From Gluconobacter vitians (GTDB lineage Bacteria; Pseudomonadota; Alphaproteobacteria; Acetobacterales; Acetobacteraceae), in contig NZ_JABCQG010000017.1 in NCBI RefSeq assembly GCF_015244565.1, positions 1-61,195 of the forward strand: a DNA stretch of 61,195 nt, written 5' to 3'. The stretch's first letter is position 1. Every line of letters starts with the position of its first letter. Shown here piece after piece: positions 16,650 to 37,515 of this stretch. Under the pieces are notes generated by a model. That model ran no database searches. It was not told the DNA's origin and saw only the letters and a list, made by a program, of their open reading frames with translations. The translations under genes were made by a program, and so were the position numbers.

Positions 16650-16935
16650 GGTGGGAGGGCTTCTGTTGCCCGGTGCCCTCCCGAACCGCGCTTATCGCTT
16701 ATGCAGCGACAGCGAGCACCTCTGAGTTATCGTTGGCACTTGTAAGTTTAGCCCGATGACGGTGGTACAATGCCGGGCAAAAGGTAAGTCTTTACCATGC
16801 GTGTCGAGCCTGTTTCGTCCCCACAGACCCCTTTTGCGAGGGGTTTTTCATGGTGGAGACGCCGGGCACTGCCCCCGGGTCCACAACACTTATTTCACTT
16901 ACCGTTTATCGCCATAGCTGGGGACGAACCCCTTG
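16650..16935 (-). ncRNA. ssrA: Two-piece (circularly permuted) tmRNA
   Basis: On the minus strand an acceptor piece ending CGTCTCCACCA (CCA at 16851-16853) is followed by a 28-base spacer with its own hairpin, then the coding piece starting GGGGACGAAAC at 16822. GGGGACG pairs with CGTCTCC as a seven-base acceptor stem with G-U at the third pair, the alanine identity element. ACTTACC in the coding piece (16783-16789) pairs with GGTAAGT in the acceptor piece (16897-16903). The tag frame at 16699-16737 reads ANDNSEVLAVAA-stop. An eight-base stem (GGGAGGGC/GCCCTCCC) closes the 3' pseudoknot region. Outer ends are approximate. Confidence 0.95.
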
Positions 16936-16989
16936 CATTGCTGAACATAGGAGTGCGCGTGCCCCGTCGCAAGGGAAAAGGCGGGGATG

Positions 16990-21906: not shown

Positions 21907-22974
21907 ATGAACTTTCTGACACGTCTGAGCCGGAAATGGCTGTCCGTGCCGCCCCGAAACAGCAGATGGCGCGAAGTGATGCGCCCTGCCACACGCCAGA
22001 CCATCCGCGTTCTGGTGTCGGTGGTGGTGGCGTGGATCGTCGGCTCCCTCATGCATCTGCAGGAAACGATCTGGGCCTTGGTGACAGCCCTGATCGTCAC
22101 GCAGTCCAGCATCAGCCAGACCATGACAACGGCACGGGACCAGATCAGCGGTACGCTGATCGGTGCGCTGGCGGGGGTCTGCGCCGTGGTGCTGGAAATC
22201 ACGACGGGCCTGCGCTGGGTTCCGTTCTGGCTCATGCTGGCGCCGCTGGTTTTCCTCACAGCCATCCAGCCGACGCTGCGTTTTGCATGCATTACGCTGA
22301 TGATCGTGTATCTGTTTCCCAGCCAGGGAAGCCCGTTCCTGCCCATGATCACGCGGCTTCTGGCCATAGTGGTCGGTGTGACGGTGTCGATCGTGGTGTC
22401 GTTCTTCATCCTGCATAGCAGTGCGCGCAAACAGGCTTTCCATACCGCTGCGCGACTGTTGCGGCGCATGGATCAGCTTCTCAAAAGTGCGCTTGACCAG
22501 GACACCGGATGGGCGGCGATCGAACGTCAGAACGATGACTGCGTAGCCCTGCTGACCGAGCTTGAAGATGCCGTGACCGAAGCCCGGCGTGAGCGTCTGA
22601 AGGAACTGGAAAAGCGCGATCCGGTCCTGGCCGCCCTGCCACGCCTCATGCGGCGCCTGCTGAATGATACGATGCTGGTGGCGCGCGCCATCGCAACAGG
22701 ACGCGCGGCTGGAAATACGGGCCTGCTCCCGCTCTACAAGGGACTGAGCCACGCCCTTCGTGCGCTGGCACATAGTTGTGAAGAGCAACTGCGCATGAAG
22801 CAGAACCAGCACGAACAGAAGTCGGAAGACGAGGAAATCCTGGAGCTCCTGCCACGTCTGGAAGAACAGACCCGGCCGGAAATGCGCTTTGTAATGTCCC
22901 TGTTCCGCGAGGATCTGCAGCGTGCCGTTGGCGTCATCATGCGTGAGGATGCCAGCGCCGTAAAAGGGCTCTGA
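21907..22974 (+). CDS. FUSC / aromatic acid exporter-like membrane protein
   Basis: A 355-residue protein with an N-terminal block of about five to six hydrophobic segments (RVLVSVVVAWIVGSLMH, TIWALVTALIVTQSSI, ISGTLIGALAGVCAVVLEI, and more) followed by a charged helical cytoplasmic half. This is the half-size FUSC (ArAE/DUF939-like) architecture of efflux proteins such as AaeB relatives. No membrane-fusion partner gene lies nearby, and the substrate is unknown. Confidence 0.82.
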   Translation: MNFLTRLSRKWLSVPPRNSRWREVMRPATRQTIRVLVSVVVAWIVGSLMHLQETIWALVTALIVTQSSISQTMTTARDQISGTLIGALAGVCAVVLEITTGLRWVPFWLMLAPLVFLTAIQPTLRFACITLMIVYLFPSQGSPFLPMITRLLAIVVGVTVSIVVSFFILHSSARKQAFHTAARLLRRMDQLLKSALDQDTGWAAIERQNDDCVALLTELEDAVTEARRERLKELEKRDPVLAALPRLMRRLLNDTMLVARAIATGRAAGNTGLLPLYKGLSHALRALAHSCEEQLRMKQNQHEQKSEDEEILELLPRLEEQTRPEMRFVMSLFREDLQRAVGVIMREDASAVKGL

Positions 22975-23020
22975 GACATCCGTTCAGGAGCGGCCACGAA
23001 GGACGCAGACAGGCCGCTAC

Positions 23021-23042
23021 TGAAACCGTCATTCGGTTTTTA
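23021..23042 (+). terminator. Intrinsic terminator after the FUSC gene
   Basis: AAACCG-TCATT-CGGTTT is followed by T-runs. A second inverted repeat (AGCGGCC/GGCCGCT) lies directly upstream. Confidence 0.72.
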
Positions 23043-23122
23043 CGTTGTTCCGGGGCTATGATGGCACATGCCCGGCCTTGTCGGTCCCCGTCAGAGACCG
23101 GCCCGAAACCACGGAGAATTCC

Positions 23123-24580
23123 ATGATTACGCGCGAAACCCTCAAGTCTCTTCCTTCCAATGTCCAGGCTCCCCCCTATGACATCGACGGGATCAAGCCG
23201 GGGATCGTGCATTTCGGTGTGGGCAACTTTTTCCGGGCGCATGAAGCGTTCTATGTCGAGCACATCCTCAAGCACGCGCCAGACTGGGCGATCGTGGGTG
23301 TCGGCCTGACCAACAGCGACCACTCGAAGAAGAAAGCTGAAGAGTTCAAAAAGCAGGACTGCCTGTATTCCCTGACCGAGACGGCGCCGTCCGGTAAGAG
23401 CACGGTGCGCGTCATGGGCGCTCTGCGTGATTACCTGCTGGCCCCGGCTGATCCGGAAGCCGTACTGAAGCATCTGGCCGATCCGGCTATTCGCATCGTT
23501 TCCATGACGATCACGGAGGGCGGCTACAACATCAACGAAACGACCGGCGCATTCGATCTGGAAAACGCGGCTGTAAAGGCTGACCTTCAGAATCCGGAAA
23601 AGCCGTCGACCGTGTTCGGTTATGTCGTCGAGGGTCTGCGCCGTCGCCGGGACGCGGGCGGCAAGGCCTTTACGGTCATGTCCTGCGATAACCTGCGCCA
23701 TAATGGCAATGTCGCGCGCAAGGCTTTCCTGGGCTACGCGAAGGCCCGCGATCCGGAACTGGCCAAGTGGATCGAGGAAAACGCGACCTTCCCGAATGGG
23801 ATGGTCGATCGCATCACGCCGACTGTCTCTCCTGAAATCGCGAAGAAGCTGAACGCAGCCAGCGGGCTGGACGATGATCTGCCGCTGGTGGCGGAGGATT
23901 TCCATCAGTGGGTGTTGGAAGACCGGTTCGCCAACGGACGCCCGCCGCTGGAAAAGGCTGGCGTGCAACTTGTGGACGACGTGACGGACTGGGAGCATGT
24001 GAAGATCCGGATGCTTAATGCCGGCCACATCACGCTCTGTTTCCCGGGGATCCTGCTTGGATACGAGAACGTGGACGATGCCATTGAAGACAGCGACCTG
24101 CTTGGCAATCTGAAGAACTATCTCAACAAGGACGTTATCCCGACGCTGAAGGCGCCGCCGGGCATGACGCTTGAGGGGTATCGGGATAGCGTCATCAGCC
24201 GCTTTTCCAACAAGGCGATGTCTGACCAGACGCTGCGGATCGCGAGTGATGGCTGCTCCAAGATCCAGGTGTTCTGGACGGAAACCGTGCGCCGGGCGAT
24301 CGAGGGCAAGCGCGATCTGTCGCGTATTGCGTTTGGGATTGCGTCCTATCTCGAAATGCTTCGTGGTCGCGACGAAAAGGGCGGGACGTATGAGTCGTCC
24401 GAGCCGACCTATGGCGAGGCCGAAAAAAAGCTGGCCAAGGTCGATGATTTTGAAAGTGCCCTCAAGCTCCCGGCATTCGATGGCTGGCGCGATCTGGATA
24501 CGTCAGAGCTGGATCAGAAGGTCATCGCACTGCGCAAGGTGATCCGTGAGAAGGGTGTGAAGGCCGCCATTCCGGCCTGA
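23123..24580 (+). CDS. Mannitol 2-dehydrogenase-family polyol dehydrogenase, long chain, NAD(P)-dependent
   Basis: ATG 23123 follows ACGGAGA and gives 485 residues, the size of cytosolic D-mannitol 2-dehydrogenase. The nucleotide-binding start HFGVGNFFRAH is at 31-40, and the family catalytic pattern KxxxxNxxH appears as K294-N299-H302 (KIRMLNAGH). The reaction interconverts fructose and mannitol; in Gluconobacter such an enzyme is known to prefer NADP. Coenzyme and substrate here are inferred, since fructuronate and arabinitol enzymes share the fold. It forms a single-gene unit with a terminator after it. Confidence 0.92.
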   Translation: MITRETLKSLPSNVQAPPYDIDGIKPGIVHFGVGNFFRAHEAFYVEHILKHAPDWAIVGVGLTNSDHSKKKAEEFKKQDCLYSLTETAPSGKSTVRVMGALRDYLLAPADPEAVLKHLADPAIRIVSMTITEGGYNINETTGAFDLENAAVKADLQNPEKPSTVFGYVVEGLRRRRDAGGKAFTVMSCDNLRHNGNVARKAFLGYAKARDPELAKWIEENATFPNGMVDRITPTVSPEIAKKLNAASGLDDDLPLVAEDFHQWVLEDRFANGRPPLEKAGVQLVDDVTDWEHVKIRMLNAGHITLCFPGILLGYENVDDAIEDSDLLGNLKNYLNKDVIPTLKAPPGMTLEGYRDSVISRFSNKAMSDQTLRIASDGCSKIQVFWTETVRRAIEGKRDLSRIAFGIASYLEMLRGRDEKGGTYESSEPTYGEAEKKLAKVDDFESALKLPAFDGWRDLDTSELDQKVIALRKVIREKGVKAAIPA

Positions 24581-24817: not shown

Positions 24818-24891
24818 GGCATATCTCTCTTGCCGGTTGAGACTGTTCTACGCTTCCGGATGTCAGAAAGTTTCCGCAGGAGTGTATGAGG

Positions 24892-25722
24892 TCAAAGCTG
24901 CCGGTCGCGCTTGATCCGGTCCCAGGCGGCATTGATGCGGGCCACCCGGTCCTGCGCGCGGCGGCGCTCGGCTTCCGACATGGGTTTCTGTGCCAGCACG
25001 TCCGGATGATGTTCCCGGATCAGCGTCCGCCAGCGGATACGGATCTCCGTGTCAGTCGCGCTGCGGGTGATACCCAGAATGCGATAGGCATCGGGCTCAC
25101 CCGTACTGGCGGCGCGGCTGTTCCCGCTTTCCGCCCGGTCCCAGGCACCCGGTGGCAGGCCGAAGGCCCGGTGCACGCGCTTGAGGAAATCAGTTTCCTT
25201 CGGATGCAGTTCGCGGCTTGGTCCGGCATCGGCGCGGGCAATGCGGAACAGCGCCGTCATGAGATTTTCGAGCGGCGCCGTATTATCGGCATAGGCCTTG
25301 CCCATTTCGCGGGCATACATCTCGAAATCGTCCGTCCGGTCGCGTGCGCGATCAAACAGCATGCCGACTTCCTTGACGTTGTCGGGAGGAAACTGGAAGC
25401 AGGTCTTGAAAGCGTTGATTTCCTGCCGGTTCACCGGCCCGTCGATCTTCGCCATTTTCGCGCACAGGGCGACGAGTCCGATGGCATAAAGCTGGTCACG
25501 CTTGCCAAGGGCCGCCGCGATCTTCGCCGCGCCGAAAAAGGCCGCGCTGTTGGGATCGGGTCTGCCACGCGCGGGAAAGCGCTCGCTCCATCCACCTGTG
25601 GACGGATTGAGAAGTGATCCGTTATCGGCAGCATGCCCCAGCGCTGCGCCCATCAGTGCTCCGAAAGGACCACCAACCGCGAAGCCCGCGACACCACCGA
25701 ACATCTTGCCCCAGATAGCCAT
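24892..25722 (-). CDS. DjlA-like TerB plus J-domain protein
   Basis: A 276-residue protein with a glycine-rich hydrophobic N-terminus (GGVAGFAVGGPFGALMGAALG, about 9-29) that can insert in the inner membrane. A TerB-like helical domain follows (about 70-185, with ALCAKMAKIDGPVNRQEI), and a C-terminal J domain with HPD at 239-241. This order is that of DjlA, a membrane-anchored DnaK co-chaperone. It is the second Hsp40 in the window. Confidence 0.9.
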   Translation of the reverse strand: MAIWGKMFGGVAGFAVGGPFGALMGAALGHAADNGSLLNPSTGGWSERFPARGRPDPNSAAFFGAAKIAAALGKRDQLYAIGLVALCAKMAKIDGPVNRQEINAFKTCFQFPPDNVKEVGMLFDRARDRTDDFEMYAREMGKAYADNTAPLENLMTALFRIARADAGPSRELHPKETDFLKRVHRAFGLPPGAWDRAESGNSRAASTGEPDAYRILGITRSATDTEIRIRWRTLIREHHPDVLAQKPMSEAERRRAQDRVARINAAWDRIKRDRQL

Positions 25723-26236: not shown

Positions 26237-26463
26237 TCCGAAGCTTTGACGGTTTTCTGAAGATGCACCAGGGCCGCGACCCGCAGGGCCGACGCCAGGG
26301 GGCGCTCAGGGTTCCGCGTGGCATCCAGAGACGCGACCAGCGAAGCAAAGCTCTGCTGGCGTGTTGCGGCCATCGCATCCAGAACCGCCCAGAACTCGGG
26401 TTCCAGTGCAACCGAGGTACGATGGCCTGACAGGGACAGGCTGCGCTTGATCAAATCGCTCAT
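26233..26463 (-). CDS. Ribbon-helix-helix (RHH_4-type) DNA-binding-like protein
   Basis: A 76-residue protein with KRSLSLSGHRTSVALEPEFWAVLDAMAATRQQSFASLVASLDATR, the usual strand-helix-helix of the RHH_4 family common in alphaproteobacteria. Its start overlaps the queG stop (ATGA at 26460-26463), so it is translated from the queG message. The target is unknown. Its stop abuts the convergent membrane-protein gene. Confidence 0.82.
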   Translation of the reverse strand: MSDLIKRSLSLSGHRTSVALEPEFWAVLDAMAATRQQSFASLVASLDATRNPERPLASALRVAALVHLQKTVKASD

Positions 26464-27518
26464 GCGGACAATTCCTCAAGCCGGTTTATGGCCCATTGTG
26501 CTGTTTCGGAAACATCCGGATCGGGATCATTCAGCAGGTTCCGCGCCGCGGTAACAAGCGATGGATCAGCTGAATTGCCGATCGCGATCAGGACATTGCG
26601 CACAAACCGGTTGCGTCCGATCCGCTTGACCGGAGAGCCGGAAAAGAACGTCCGGAACGTCGCATCATCCAGCCGGGCCAGTTCGTCAAGCTTTGGGGCG
26701 ATGAGCTCCGACCGGGCCTGAAGCTTGATGTGGCGCGCGCTTTCCGCAAAGCGGTTCCATGGACAGACGGCCAGACAGTCATCACAGCCATAGATGTGAT
26801 TGCCGATTTTTGGCCGTAGTTCATGCGGGATCGGGCCTTTATGCTCAATCGTCAGATACGAGATGCAGCGCCGCGCATCCATCTTTCCGGGGCCGGTGAA
26901 GGCCTCTGTCGGGCAGGCGGTCAGACAGCGCGTGCAGGAGCCGCAGCTTCCGCCAGTGGGCTCGGACGGTATCAGCTTCAGCGTGGTATAGATTTCGCCC
27001 AGAAGCAGCCATGACCCGTGCTCACGCGAGACGAGGCAGGTGTGCTTCCCCTTCCAGCCAAGATGCGCTTTCTCCGCCAGTGCGCGTTCCGAGACGGGAG
27101 CTGTATCGACGAAAACCTTCACCTGCGTTTCCGGACCACCCAGCTTCACGACGAACTGCGCCAGATGCTTGAGCATGCCCTTGATGACGTCGTGATAGTC
27201 CCGGTTGCGGGCATAGACGGAAATATTGCCGCATTCGGGATCGGTCGTCGGTCCTTCGGCGGGAGCATAGGACAGGCCGAGTGAAATCACGCTCCGGACT
27301 TCGGGCCACAGGGCTTGTGGATGGGCGCGTTCGTCGAGACGCGTTTCCATCCACTCCATCGTGCCGTGATGGCCCTGCGCGACAAACTCCCGCAGGCCCT
27401 TCGCCACCTTCGGCCCAAGCTCGGCCCTGCAGAACCCGACCGCATCGAAACCCAGATGGCGGGCATGGTCCGCAATCCGGGTTTCGATCGCTATGTCGGA
27501 TCTGGCAGAAGCGGACAT
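26460..27518 (-). CDS. queG: Epoxyqueuosine reductase
   Basis: A 352-residue cobalamin and Fe-S enzyme for the last step of queuosine synthesis in tRNA. The first cluster uses Cys192, 195, 198 and 202 (CGSCTRCLTAC), the second Cys245, 248 and 252 (CDDCLAVC). The likely catalytic Asp138 lies in VFVDTAPVSER, and a C-terminal HEAT-like repeat follows. tgt and queA lie about 5-6 kb away on the same strand, so three of the pathway genes are in this window. It is divergent from the secreted deaminase gene. Confidence 0.95.
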   Translation of the reverse strand: MSASARSDIAIETRIADHARHLGFDAVGFCRAELGPKVAKGLREFVAQGHHGTMEWMETRLDERAHPQALWPEVRSVISLGLSYAPAEGPTTDPECGNISVYARNRDYHDVIKGMLKHLAQFVVKLGGPETQVKVFVDTAPVSERALAEKAHLGWKGKHTCLVSREHGSWLLLGEIYTTLKLIPSEPTGGSCGSCTRCLTACPTEAFTGPGKMDARRCISYLTIEHKGPIPHELRPKIGNHIYGCDDCLAVCPWNRFAESARHIKLQARSELIAPKLDELARLDDATFRTFFSGSPVKRIGRNRFVRNVLIAIGNSADPSLVTAARNLLNDPDPDVSETAQWAINRLEELSA

Positions 27519-30310: not shown

Positions 30311-31090
30311 TCAGTCATGGTCAGGGTCGATCTTCCTGACTTCATGAACACCATCAATTGCGCCCAGTCCCGTAATGAGATGGGAGACGGGCCGATTGCC
30401 ATGCACCAGCATGGTCAGCGTCACGAGGCGTGGACGCGGAGCCGCTGGGGCCGTTCCTTCGCGATCCGCCGCATCCAAAAGCTGTTCGGTGCTCCGGTTT
30501 TCCTCTTCGAGGCGCACGCCATCAATGGCAAAGCGCAGTTGCGTGCAGCTCACCAGAATGGTCCGCAGCAGACCGCGGCTGTCTTCATAGGAAATTGTCA
30601 GCTCGGTTGACTGTTTTCCCGAGCGGGGAAGCTGTTTCAGCAGTTTCGGAAACAGCACCATGACGATGAAATGGGCGGCTGTCGTAGCAATGGCGAGAAT
30701 GGGCAGCCCTGCACCACGGGCCATGCCCAGAGCCGCCGTGAACCAGATGGCCGCGGCCGTTGTCAGGCCCCGCACGGCATCGCGGCGCATGAAAATCACA
30801 CCACCCCCGATGAAGCCGATTCCCGAGACGATCTGCGCGGCCACGCGGGACGGATCCAGCACGATCCGCCCGGCATCAATGACGTCCATGAAGCCGTATT
30901 TGGAAATCAGCATGAACAGGGCGGCGGAAACACCGACAAGCGTATGCGTCCGCAGACCAGCACTTTTCTACCGGATCTCACGTTCCAGCCCCACCAAGGA
31001 GGACAGAACGAATGCGAGCGCCAGCTCTTCAAGCTGAAGCCGTCCTTCGCCCACCAGTCCCTGAGCCGTCAGTGTGATGAGATTGTGCAT
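30311..31090 (-). pseudogene. MgtC/SapB-family membrane protein interrupted by an in-frame amber codon
   Basis: From ATG 31090 the frame reads an MgtC N-terminus (MHNLITLTAQGLV...LEELALAFVLSSLVGLEREIR), then TAG at 30968-30970 where homologues have Gln, and continues in the same frame with KSAGLRTHTLVGVSAALFMLISKYG, QIVSGIGFIGGGVIF and a C-terminal ACT-like domain. A single C-to-T change in CAG explains it. Translation could restart at ATG 30913 but would lose the first membrane helices and the conserved LEREIRQ motif. MgtC proteins affect Mg2+ limitation growth and ATP synthase activity in other bacteria. Confidence 0.85.
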
Positions 31091-31254: not shown

Positions 31255-32433
31255 TTACAGGGCCAGATCCGGCATCGGCCATTCGTCTTCGGTCCAGTCG
31301 CCCTTGGCCCAGTCTTCGCGCAGTTTCACGGCCAAGGCGTCGAGCGTGCCGTCCACGATGGCGGCACGGATCTGGCGCATCAGGCGCTGGTAATAGGCCA
31401 GGTTGTGCCAGGTCAGCAGCATCGGGCCGAGCATTTCGTTGGCGCGGAAAAGATGGTGCAGATAGGCGCGGCTGTAGCGCCCGGCGACGGGTGTGTCGTC
31501 ATGGGGCGTCAGTGGGCGGGTGTCGTCGGCGAAACGGGCGTTGCGCAGGTTGATCGTGCCGCGCTCGGTATAGGCGCGGGCCGTGCGGCCGGCACGTGAG
31601 GGCATCACGCAGTCGAACATGTCCACGCCGCGCATGACGGCACCCAGAAGATCGTCCGGCGTGCCGACGCCCATAAGATACCGCGCCTTGTCCTGCGGCA
31701 ACATTGGCGTGGTGAAGTCCAGCGTCGAGAACATCAGTTCCTGACCTTCACCCACGGCCAGACCGCCGATCGCATAGCCTTCAAAGCCGATATCGGTCAG
31801 GGCCTTGATGGAATATTCGCGTAAGTCCCGCTCGGTTCCGCCCTGTACGATGCCGAACTGCCCGTATCCTTCGCGCGCCACGAAAGCCTCGCGGGAACGG
31901 GCCGCCCAGCGCATCGACATTTCCATGGATTTCCGCAGGACTTCCGGCGTGGCAGGGAGTGCGGGGCATTCGTCGAACGCCATGGTAATGGTTGCGTCGA
32001 GCTTGAACTGGATGTCGGTCGAGATCTCCGGCGTCAGGCGATGCTTGCTGCCGTCGATATGCGAACGGAACGTCACGCCATCTTCGTCGAGCTTGCGCAG
32101 CGCACCAAGGGACATGACCTGAAACCCGCCGGAATCGGTCAGGATCGGGCCGGGCCAATCCATCATTCTGTGCAGGCCGCCCAGCTTCTGCACGCGGTCC
32201 GCCGTGGGGCGCAGCATGAGATGATAGGTGTTGCCCAGAACGATGCCAGCACCCGTGGAGCGCACGGCATCCATCGTCATGCCTTTGACCGTGCCGACAG
32301 TGCCAACCGGCATGAATGTCGGGGTCGGGACTGTGCCGTGGCGGGTGTGCAGATGGCCGGCGCGCGCCATGCCGCAGGTTGCTTCTGGCACCCAGGTCAT
32401 TTTGGTGGCGTGATCGGTCTTGTGATCGCTCAT
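31255..32433 (-). CDS. tgt: tRNA-guanine transglycosylase lacking the zinc-binding cysteines
   Basis: A 392-residue enzyme that exchanges guanine 34 for preQ1 in GUN tRNAs. Pocket and catalytic parts are intact: [12 protein letters not shown] (Asp100), QGG at 197-199, GGLAVGE at 223-229 and nucleophile Asp274 in [11 protein letters not shown]. The structural zinc site is not: where E. coli has CDCxxC before NYSRAYLHH, this protein reads [17 protein letters not shown], so all three Cys positions (312, 314, 317) are Asp, Thr and Ala, while the fourth ligand His343 (TWHNL) remains. The frame is continuous. Start ATG overlaps the queA stop. Confidence 0.95.
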
Positions 32434-33473
32434 GGCGCGCGCTCCAGCAGGCAGGCATCGCCATACGAATAGAACCGCAATCCGTTGGCGATGGCGTAGG
32501 CATAGGCCTCACGCATGGTCTCGGTGCCGCTGAACGCGCAGACGAGCATGAACAGCGTCGAACGCGGCAGGTGGAAGTTGGTCATCAGCACGTCCACCGC
32601 CTTGAAGCGGTATCCGGGCTTGATGAAAATGGAAGTCTCGCCGCGCCATGGTGCCACGGTGCCGTCATCACGGGCCGCACTTTCCAGCAGGCGTAGGGAC
32701 GTGGTGCCGACGGCCACGATCCGGCCACCACGCGCACGGGTCTCGTTGATGGCAGCGGCGGTTTCCGCGTCGATCTCACCCCATTCCGCGTGCATCTTGT
32801 GCTCGGCGATGGTGGAGCGGACAGGCAGGAACGTGCCCGCACCGACGTGGAGCGTCAGTGTCCGGCGCTGGATGCCCTTTGCGTCCAAAGCCGCGAGCAG
32901 TTCAGGCGTGAAATGCAGGCCGGCCGTCGGAGCGGCCACGGCGCCGCGATACTGCGAGAAGATGGTACGGTAATCCGCATCGTCCTGCTTTGTCGGACCG
33001 AAAGGGCGCTCGATATAAGGCGGCAAGGCCAGCGCGCCCACCCGTTCGAGAAACGCGTCGAACTCGTCTCCCTCGACCGAGAAGCGGATGCTGACTGCGC
33101 CGTCGCCTTCGTTCTCGATCACGGTGGCCGTGACCGGATCATCACCGAAATGCAGGATATCCTGCGGCTTCAGCTTGCGGGAATTGCGCGCCAGGGCATG
33201 CCAGCTTCCATCCGCCAGAATACGGTCAAGCGTCAGGCCGATCTTTGCCTCGCCACGTGTGGCAGCAAGCTGGGCACGGATGACGGCCGTGTTGTTGGCA
33301 ATCAGCAGATCCCCTTCACGCAGGAAATCCGGCAGATCGCGGATTACATGCGGATCAGGCGGCAGACCGGGCCGGACATGCAGCAGCGTTGCACTGTCAC
33401 GCGGGCGGGCAGGCTCTGTCGCGATGTGGTCGCGTGGGAGTTCGAAGTCGAATGGGGCGAGATCATCCGTCAT
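32430..33473 (-). CDS. queA: S-adenosylmethionine:tRNA ribosyltransferase-isomerase
   Basis: ATG 33473 gives 347 residues ([18 protein letters not shown]...), the standard start; the frame is open to 33521 without a better ribosome site. Family blocks [43 protein letters not shown] and [18 protein letters not shown] are all present. It adds the epoxycyclopentanediol group from SAM to preQ1-tRNA, between the Tgt and QueG steps. Its stop overlaps the tgt start (ATGA), so queA-tgt form one translationally coupled unit. Confidence 0.96.
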
Positions 33474-33503
33474 GGGGATGCTCTCTAGCAGGTTCAGCTC
33501 ACA

Positions 33504-33531
33504 TGAAAACGCCGGACCCACAGGCCCGGCG
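33504..33531 (-). terminator. Intrinsic terminator of the PQQ dehydrogenase gene
   Basis: On the minus strand CGCCGGGCC and GGTCCGGCG form a nine-base stem (one G-U) followed by TTTTC, 33 bases after the dehydrogenase stop. It separates it from queA-tgt. Confidence 0.78.
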
Positions 33532-36377: not shown

Positions 36378-36558
36378 GGGGAAAAGACTCCGTGGGATAG
36401 GAACGAAGTCATTTTCGGATCAGAAGGTTAATAAAGGATAAGGGGCCATGTAACCGAGTGATACGGATTGTATAAGGCCATGAACCGTGTTGCTGTTACA
36501 TTGGGGATTGAGCGCCTGTTACATTCAGAATAGACGCCCGCACCGAAAATCCGGGGCC

Positions 36559-37341
36559 TCATTTCATGCCGGGAAGCTTCTTCGCGGCCTGCCAGAGGGC
36601 TTCCATCGTGGGCAGGTCCTGTTCGGCCATGGTCTGTCCCTTCTCGGCCAGCATGGCTTCCATGGCTTCAAAGCGACGGGTGAACTTGTCATTGCTGCGA
36701 CGCAGGGCGGCTTCAGGGTCGATATCCAGTTTGCGGGCCAAGCTTGCGACCGTGAAGAGAATATCGCCCAGTTCATCCTCGATCCGGTCACGGTCCCCGC
36801 CAATTTCGGCTTTCAGTTCGTCGATTTCTTCATGGACCTTGTCGAGGATACCGGTGGCATCGTCCCAGTCGAAACCCACGCGGGCCGCGCGGCGTGTCAG
36901 CTTGGCGGCGCGCATGAGGGCGGGAAGGGGCAGGGCGACACCCGCCAGCGTGCCATATTCCGCCCTGCGCTGGCGCTCGGCTTCCTTTTCCCGCTCCCAT
37001 GTGTCGTCATTCATCGCTGCATCACCAAAAACATGCGGATGGCGGCGCACAAGTTTGTCGGCAATGGTGCCTGCGACGGTCTCAAAGTCGAAATGCCCGG
37101 CTTCCGAGGCCATCTGGGCCTGAAAGACGACTTGGAGCAGCAAATCGCCCAGTTCATCGGGAATGGAATCGCGGTCGTCACGCGCAATGGCGTCCATGAC
37201 CTCGTAGGCTTCCTCGATCGCGAACGGCGCAATCGTGGCCGGGGTCTGTTCCACGTCCCACGGACAACCGCTCTCGGGGTCACGCAGGCGCTTCATGACA
37301 TCCAGCAGGCGGTCGATTTGCCGGGGGGAGGACTGGGTCAT
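36559..37341 (-). CDS. mazG: Nucleoside triphosphate pyrophosphohydrolase MazG
   Basis: A 260-residue tandem MazG protein that hydrolyses (d)NTPs to NMP and pyrophosphate. The first domain has CPWDVEQTPATIAPFAIEEAYEVMDAI and DELGDLLLQVVFQ (ExxE..ExxD metal sites); the second has EEIDELKAEI and IEDELGDILFTVASLAR. Length and order match E. coli MazG. It is a stand-alone minus-strand gene. Confidence 0.95.
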   Translation of the reverse strand: MTQSSPRQIDRLLDVMKRLRDPESGCPWDVEQTPATIAPFAIEEAYEVMDAIARDDRDSIPDELGDLLLQVVFQAQMASEAGHFDFETVAGTIADKLVRRHPHVFGDAAMNDDTWEREKEAERQRRAEYGTLAGVALPLPALMRAAKLTRRAARVGFDWDDATGILDKVHEEIDELKAEIGGDRDRIEDELGDILFTVASLARKLDIDPEAALRRSNDKFTRRFEAMEAMLAEKGQTMAEQDLPTMEALWQAAKKLPGMK

Positions 37342-37515
37342 GGAAACATCCTGCTGTTATGGGGCTGCAAGGTTCATACCCGCGAGGCTTCATGGATGAA
37401 AGCGCCAGGTCCAGCAGCAGCGGGTGACAGCATGACATTCCCGACGTAAAACGACTGCCGGACGTTTCAGGCATCTGCCGGGGCGGAACGGATTTGCAGA
37501 CAGGGTGGATGGCGC

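Follow-up and report, generated by a model that had tools for sequence, protein, structure and literature searches.

A stretch of 61,195 nucleotides of Gluconobacter vitians DNA (the window) encodes a tRNA guanosine(34) transglycosylase, Tgt, in which the three cysteines of the CxCxxC zinc site are absent while the fourth ligand, a histidine, and the active site are in place. This protein is likely to be an active, preQ1-inserting Tgt without structural zinc, in which a contact between Asp/Glu312 and His343 probably takes the place of the metal. The features on which this reading draws are collected in Table 1.

Table 1. Positions in the window of tgt, of the codons discussed and of two further queuosine genes.
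Feature	Position	Strand	Basis
tgt, tRNA guanosine(34) transglycosylase	31255..32433	-	392 aa; profile matches
Codons 312-317 (D-D-T-P-V-A), at the place of the CxCxxC zinc ligands	31483..31500	-	alignments
His343 codon, fourth ligand position kept (E. coli His333)	31405..31407	-	alignments
Asp274 codon, catalytic nucleophile position	31612..31614	-	alignment position; role by Z. mobilis Asp280
Asp100 codon, general acid/base position	32134..32136	-	alignment position; role by Z. mobilis Asp102
Codons 223-229 (GGLAVGE), preQ1-type substrate pocket	31747..31767	-	motif
queA, directly upstream of tgt, 4-base overlap	32430..33521	-	TIGR00113, NF001140
queG, epoxyqueuosine reductase	26460..27518	-	TIGR00276 441.8 bits (cut-off 200)

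Ligand positions, active site and pathway

The tgt reading frame runs uninterrupted through its 392 codons. Its product scores 461.3 bits against the TIGR00430 equivalog (cut-off 306.75), which identifies it as a bacterial Tgt, and 483.5 bits against Pfam TGT; against the archaeal TgtA profile TIGR00432 it reaches 119.6 bits, far short of the cut-off of 350. The nearest named relatives of the protein are those of Gluconobacter cerinus and G. morbifer (93%). It is the sole Tgt match in the assembly, in which no second copy, including one of the zinc type elsewhere, was matched.

The ligand columns were taken from a phmmer alignment to Z. mobilis TGT and a MAFFT alignment with relatives. A zinc-containing Tgt carries three cysteines and one histidine at these columns, and the Gluconobacter protein has Asp312, Thr314 and Ala317 in the columns of E. 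coli Cys302, Cys304 and Cys307, with His343 in that of the fourth ligand; the E. coli numbers 302, 304, 307 and 333 agree with the chain of PDB 10fb by a hand count on the alignment. Another alignment is possible (CDC-LACS over DDSPLA-G), by which the third cysteine would be deleted and not replaced, and the three cysteines are absent either way. Among the PDB sequence matches with an alignment listed, namely the Z. mobilis entries and E. coli 10fa and 10fb, all have CxCxxC, and none of these is a solved Tgt structure without the ligands.

The motifs of the active site are all present, with DSGGFQ starting at residue 100, GGLAVGE at 223 and MFDCVMP at 272, the last of which supplies Asp274. 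In Z. mobilis TGT, Asp280 is described as the nucleophile and Asp102 as the general acid/base (PMC4425180), and the corresponding columns of Asp274 and Asp100 are invariant in an alignment of 89 rows; the catalytic pair of aspartates is complete. By the rule for telling preQ1-type from queuine-type pockets given in PMC11570991, GGLAVGE at 223-229 is of the preQ1 type (GGLAVG). The Z. mobilis and E. coli enzymes (PDB 1ozm and 10fb) thus resemble the Gluconobacter Tgt in aligning over the full length, in belonging to TIGR00430 and in sharing the catalytic aspartates and the preQ1 pocket, but differ at the zinc site, where they have CxCxxC and His and the Gluconobacter Tgt has D-x-T-x-x-A and His. 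An earlier, sequence-only reading of this DNA had described a continuous frame, the loss of the three zinc cysteines with retention of the histidine, and intact Asp274, Asp100 and GGLAVGE; both alignments bear this out, and the interval in which it had placed the altered site is exactly codons 312-317 of the minus-strand gene.

The gene is under strong purifying selection. Whole-gene dN/dS between the query and relatives that also lack the cysteines lies between 0.012 and 0.104 in eight comparisons, a ninth (with L004) being saturated, and over residues 300-350 the same clade comparisons give a pN of at most 0.106 with the same surplus of silent change. The coupling of queA to tgt and the presence of queG in the window, both pointed out by the sequence-only reading, were found as described. 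The queA product scores 327.1 bits against TIGR00113 (cut-off 267.45) and 427.1 bits against NF001140 (cut-off 324), and in all 41 Asp/Glu312 loci with both flanks queA immediately precedes tgt in the same orientation. The same genome holds queE, queC and queD consecutively at a further locus (L250), and also queF; the QueD protein passes the Pfam cut-off (74.4 vs 22.4) and lies below that of the equivalog TIGR03367 (65.2 vs 89.25). Given the purifying selection, the upstream queA and the presence of queE-queC-queD, queF and queG, the Gluconobacter Tgt is probably active.

Distribution of the loss

Ligand states are written here as the residues at 312, 314, 317 and 343, the complete zinc site being CCCH. 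All 26 same-genus genomes contain tgt, none with an internal stop, and their states are DTAH (14), DSAH (11) and DSGH (1), each without the three cysteines and with the histidine. The sequence-only reading had held that CxCxxC in a near-identical Tgt would point to an error here, and none of the 26 has it. The possibility that the loss reflects faulty sequencing or assembly of this strain is refuted by this repetition, and independent named entries of Gluconobacter, Swingsia, Bombella, Saccharibacter and Aristophania also match the loss; the chance of such an error is negligible.

Beyond the genus, the loss, together with Asp or Glu at 312, is common to entries of Swingsia, Bombella, Parasaccharibacter, Saccharibacter, Aristophania, Oecophyllibacter and Formicincola, and CCCH is found in entries of Asaia, Kozakia, Neoasaia, Acidomonas, Brytella, Acetobacter, Komagataeibacter and Gluconacetobacter. 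Examination of 57 family loci, drawn from 286 family genomes with a match, gave 34 with CCCH and 23 without the cysteines, and no intermediate state among the 57. In a 34-row tree of acetic-acid-bacterium-type Tgts, built with the zinc-site columns excluded, all 11 rows that lack the site fall into a single clade (support 98/99) inside the CCCH rows and require one state change, which indicates that the acetic acid bacteria lost it once. The question whether the loss is clade-wide is thereby answered for these rows, and the comparison supports a loss that is both clade-wide and old. Two independent losses in the acetic acid bacteria, as suggested by a split of L238 and L241 in a quick 172-row tree, were overruled by the more careful 34-row tree.

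The site is also incomplete elsewhere. Of 144 genomes sampled evenly across the Alphaproteobacteria, 134 had a match and the Tgts of 131 were examined, the other three matched genomes being the query genome and two others of its family; 27 of the 131 lack a complete ligand set, with CCCH in 78 of 100 closer loci and in 26 of 31 more distant ones. The rows of distant loci depend on the alignment, L280 being ISSH in one and ISCH in another, and one of the 27 (L256) has C-x-G-x-x-C with additional Cys close by and may still bind zinc with a shifted spacing. Outside the Alphaproteobacteria, all 25 loci recognised as such by title in one set of relatives are CCCH, and a sample of 40 Tgts, taken from 86 such genomes with a match, contains 36 with CCCH and four without. 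These four incomplete sites (L302, L326, L304 and L328; THAH twice, GVAH and CCTH) come from two families of this sample. The statement of the sequence-only reading that the zinc site is close to universal in bacterial Tgt is not upheld by these counts.

The 172-row tree, a quick build with many weak branches from which the zinc columns were likewise excluded, holds 53 incomplete rows and at least 15 state changes. The number is 14 when branches with support below 80 are collapsed and resolved most favourably, 14 again when nine rows that are long or of unusual composition are left out of the count, and 12 when a row is taken as lost only if three or four of its ligands are gone. Such counts do not separate gain from loss, and loss is the natural reading because all outgroups used are CCCH.

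Distant Tgts of about 33-43% identity to the query (L254-L285 except L277) occur in 31 of the 131 sampled alphaproteobacterial genomes, with a pocket, GG[SCT]xG, that resembles the queuine type as given in PMC11570991. One genome (G343) has, beside its main Tgt (L171), a second Tgt-like protein (L277) with no cysteine at the zinc positions and the pocket FGGWPIGD; the site of L171 is itself incomplete (FECH).

The replacement loop and alternative explanations

Residues that vary together with the lost ligands were sought in 649 aligned rows, of which 377 are not CCCH, with 105 representatives at 90% identity. Co-variation, about which the sequence-only reading had asked, is seen at positions 312 and 343: His343 accompanies Asp or Glu312 in 84 of 84 rows (14 of 14 representatives), and histidine never accompanies Ser312 with Ala317 (0 of 240 rows, 0 of 50 representatives), where Asn, Val, Ala, Thr or Ile is found instead. 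The 84 rows include 39 database proteins and some duplicate loci, and the counts within the acetic acid bacteria are not independent since they descend from one evolutionary event. The loop that replaces the zinc site in acetic acid bacteria has the form [D/E]-x-[S/T/G]-P-x-(A), and the invariance of P315 (84/84), with A317 and G318 mostly kept (75/84 each), indicates that this loop is itself constrained; D313 is found in 78 of the 84. The conserved loop and the 312-343 pattern together suggest a compensating local fold in the Gluconobacter Tgt. Since residues 312 and 343 share one zinc ion in zinc-type enzymes, a contact between Asp/Glu and His in its place would be the simplest lock.

In the proposed mechanism, the zinc-knuckle loop would have become a conserved zinc-free loop in one common ancestor of Gluconobacter, Swingsia, Bombella/Saccharibacter, Aristophania, Oecophyllibacter, Formicincola and their kin. 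The acidic residue at 312 would face His343, each of them standing where a zinc ligand used to be, and a charged hydrogen bond between them probably anchors the loop on the helix. The usual base-exchange chemistry would be kept, with Asp274 as nucleophile, Asp100 as acid/base and GGLAVGE as the pocket. A second pattern is seen in the Hyphomicrobiales, where CCSH, SCSH, SCAN/SCAV and SWTI lie on neighbouring branches of the 172-row tree and the site looks to have been dismantled step by step; many of their Tgts, including those of Bartonella, have lost the histidine too.

It is possible to read the conserved acidic residue and histidine differently, as substitute ligands by which the site still binds a metal, perhaps another metal or with weaker affinity, through Asp312, Asp313, Thr/Ser314 and His343. 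Aspartate and histidine are ordinary metal ligands, the pairing of acidic 312 with His343 has no exception in the 84 rows, and Asp313 is nearly as constant. However, this is unlikely: among the candidate ligands only 312 and 343 are constant, with 313 replaced by P, A, S or E and 314 by G in some, and in the Hyphomicrobiales the histidine is lost as well, which indicates that the metal is not needed for the Tgt fold in general. A decaying or inactive Tgt in a queuosine pathway on its way out might be expected from the disappearance of what PMC6165067 describes as a hallmark structural feature of TGTs, yet the low dN/dS, the retention of all catalytic and pocket residues, the pathway genes and the matches in 26 of 26 members of the genus without internal stops make this very unlikely. 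Since the zinc domain is described in the same source (PMC6165067) as part of the tRNA-binding scaffold, a changed loop could also shift tRNA recognition, so that another set of tRNAs or another base would be recognised. This is very unlikely, given that the unchanged GGLAVGE pocket and the neighbouring queA fit preQ1 insertion into tRNA and that the score lies so far under the archaeal TgtA cut-off. An active Tgt without structural zinc is accordingly the preferred reading. The zinc-independent Tgt proposed by the sequence-only reading stands as far as the clade-wide loss, the intact active site, the purifying selection and the pathway genes are concerned; from these we infer that the enzyme is catalytically active, that it binds no metal and that Asp/Glu312 contacts His343.

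Precedents and implications

Chong and colleagues reportedly found in 1995 that zinc-ligand mutants of E. coli Tgt are impaired. TGT is also described as needing zinc for activity (PMC9508795), and the zinc domain is named as one of the two hallmarks of TGTs (PMC6165067). The Tgts of Bartonella and other Hyphomicrobiales are like that of Gluconobacter in lacking the first and third cysteines, and queA is adjacent in L060, L061, L063, L065, L069 and L072; they differ in having S-x-C-P-A-A with Asn, Val or Ala in place of the histidine, and lie on other branches of the tree. Two possible functional precedents are known from print: the B. henselae bTGT, supplied with preQ1 at concentrations down to 10 nM, partially complemented the Q-minus phenotype of an E. 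coli queDF tgt deletion (PMC11570991, the main text of which does not contain the words zinc or cysteine), and the phenotype of an S. meliloti tgt mutant was not rescued by preQ1 (PMC3568095). Among the matches listed, Bartonella-type Tgts are SCAN in 120 of 120, thus without the first and third cysteines and the histidine, in a set that includes B. apis, B. apihabitans and B. choladocola; B. henselae is not among the names listed. The published zinc requirement, the reported impairment of the E. coli ligand mutants and the fact that the B. henselae complementation was partial count against zinc independence.

No published account of a zinc-less Tgt came up in literature searches, which covered open-licence papers. 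A parallel is offered by zinc-less bacterial glutamyl-tRNA synthetase (GluRS), likewise a tRNA enzyme, which in many bacteria has lost a structural zinc site and still functions, and in which a zinc-free domain from B. thailandensis is fully functional in E. coli GluRS (PMC4381286). GluRS differs in being an unrelated protein of another fold, and in that zinc content and activity were measured there.

Given the loss throughout one acetic-acid-bacterial group and the many similar losses, the structural zinc of Tgt is probably dispensable. If so, not every Tgt should be taken as a zinc protein in metalloproteome counts. More tentatively, the zinc might be a removable part for which Alphaproteobacteria have repeatedly swapped in a lock that needs no metal. 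Such locks would be of two designs or more, with Asp/Glu312-His343 used by acetic acid bacteria and Ser312/Ala317 with Asn/Val/Ala343 by Hyphomicrobiales, and could yield zinc-sparing Tgts resistant to oxidation or acid; the textbook zinc requirement of TGT would then cover only part of the family. Natural families without the ligands, some with a working queuosine pathway, would make zinc a replaceable structural staple, and the series CCCH, CCSH, SCSH, SCAN/SCAV and SWTI would offer a comparison in which the dismantling of a metal site can be followed in an enzyme that keeps working. The trait is common to many other alphaproteobacterial lineages and is not unique to the Gluconobacter clade.

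Several other features were observed in the window. An MgtC-family gene (30311-31090, minus strand; Pfam MgtC 76.8 bits over profile positions 39-118) has an in-frame stop, which marks either a pseudogene or a sequence error, and its frame is open in three same-genus relatives (L002, L111 and L113). Three long open reading frames near tgt (22937-24028, minus; 24886-25617, plus; 36487-37449, plus) match nothing in Pfam or NCBIfam at an E-value of 0.001 and may not be genes. A tmRNA gene of the alphaproteobacterial type is found at 16652-16976 on the minus strand (RF01849, 243.6 bits), and the permuted tmRNA family also matches.
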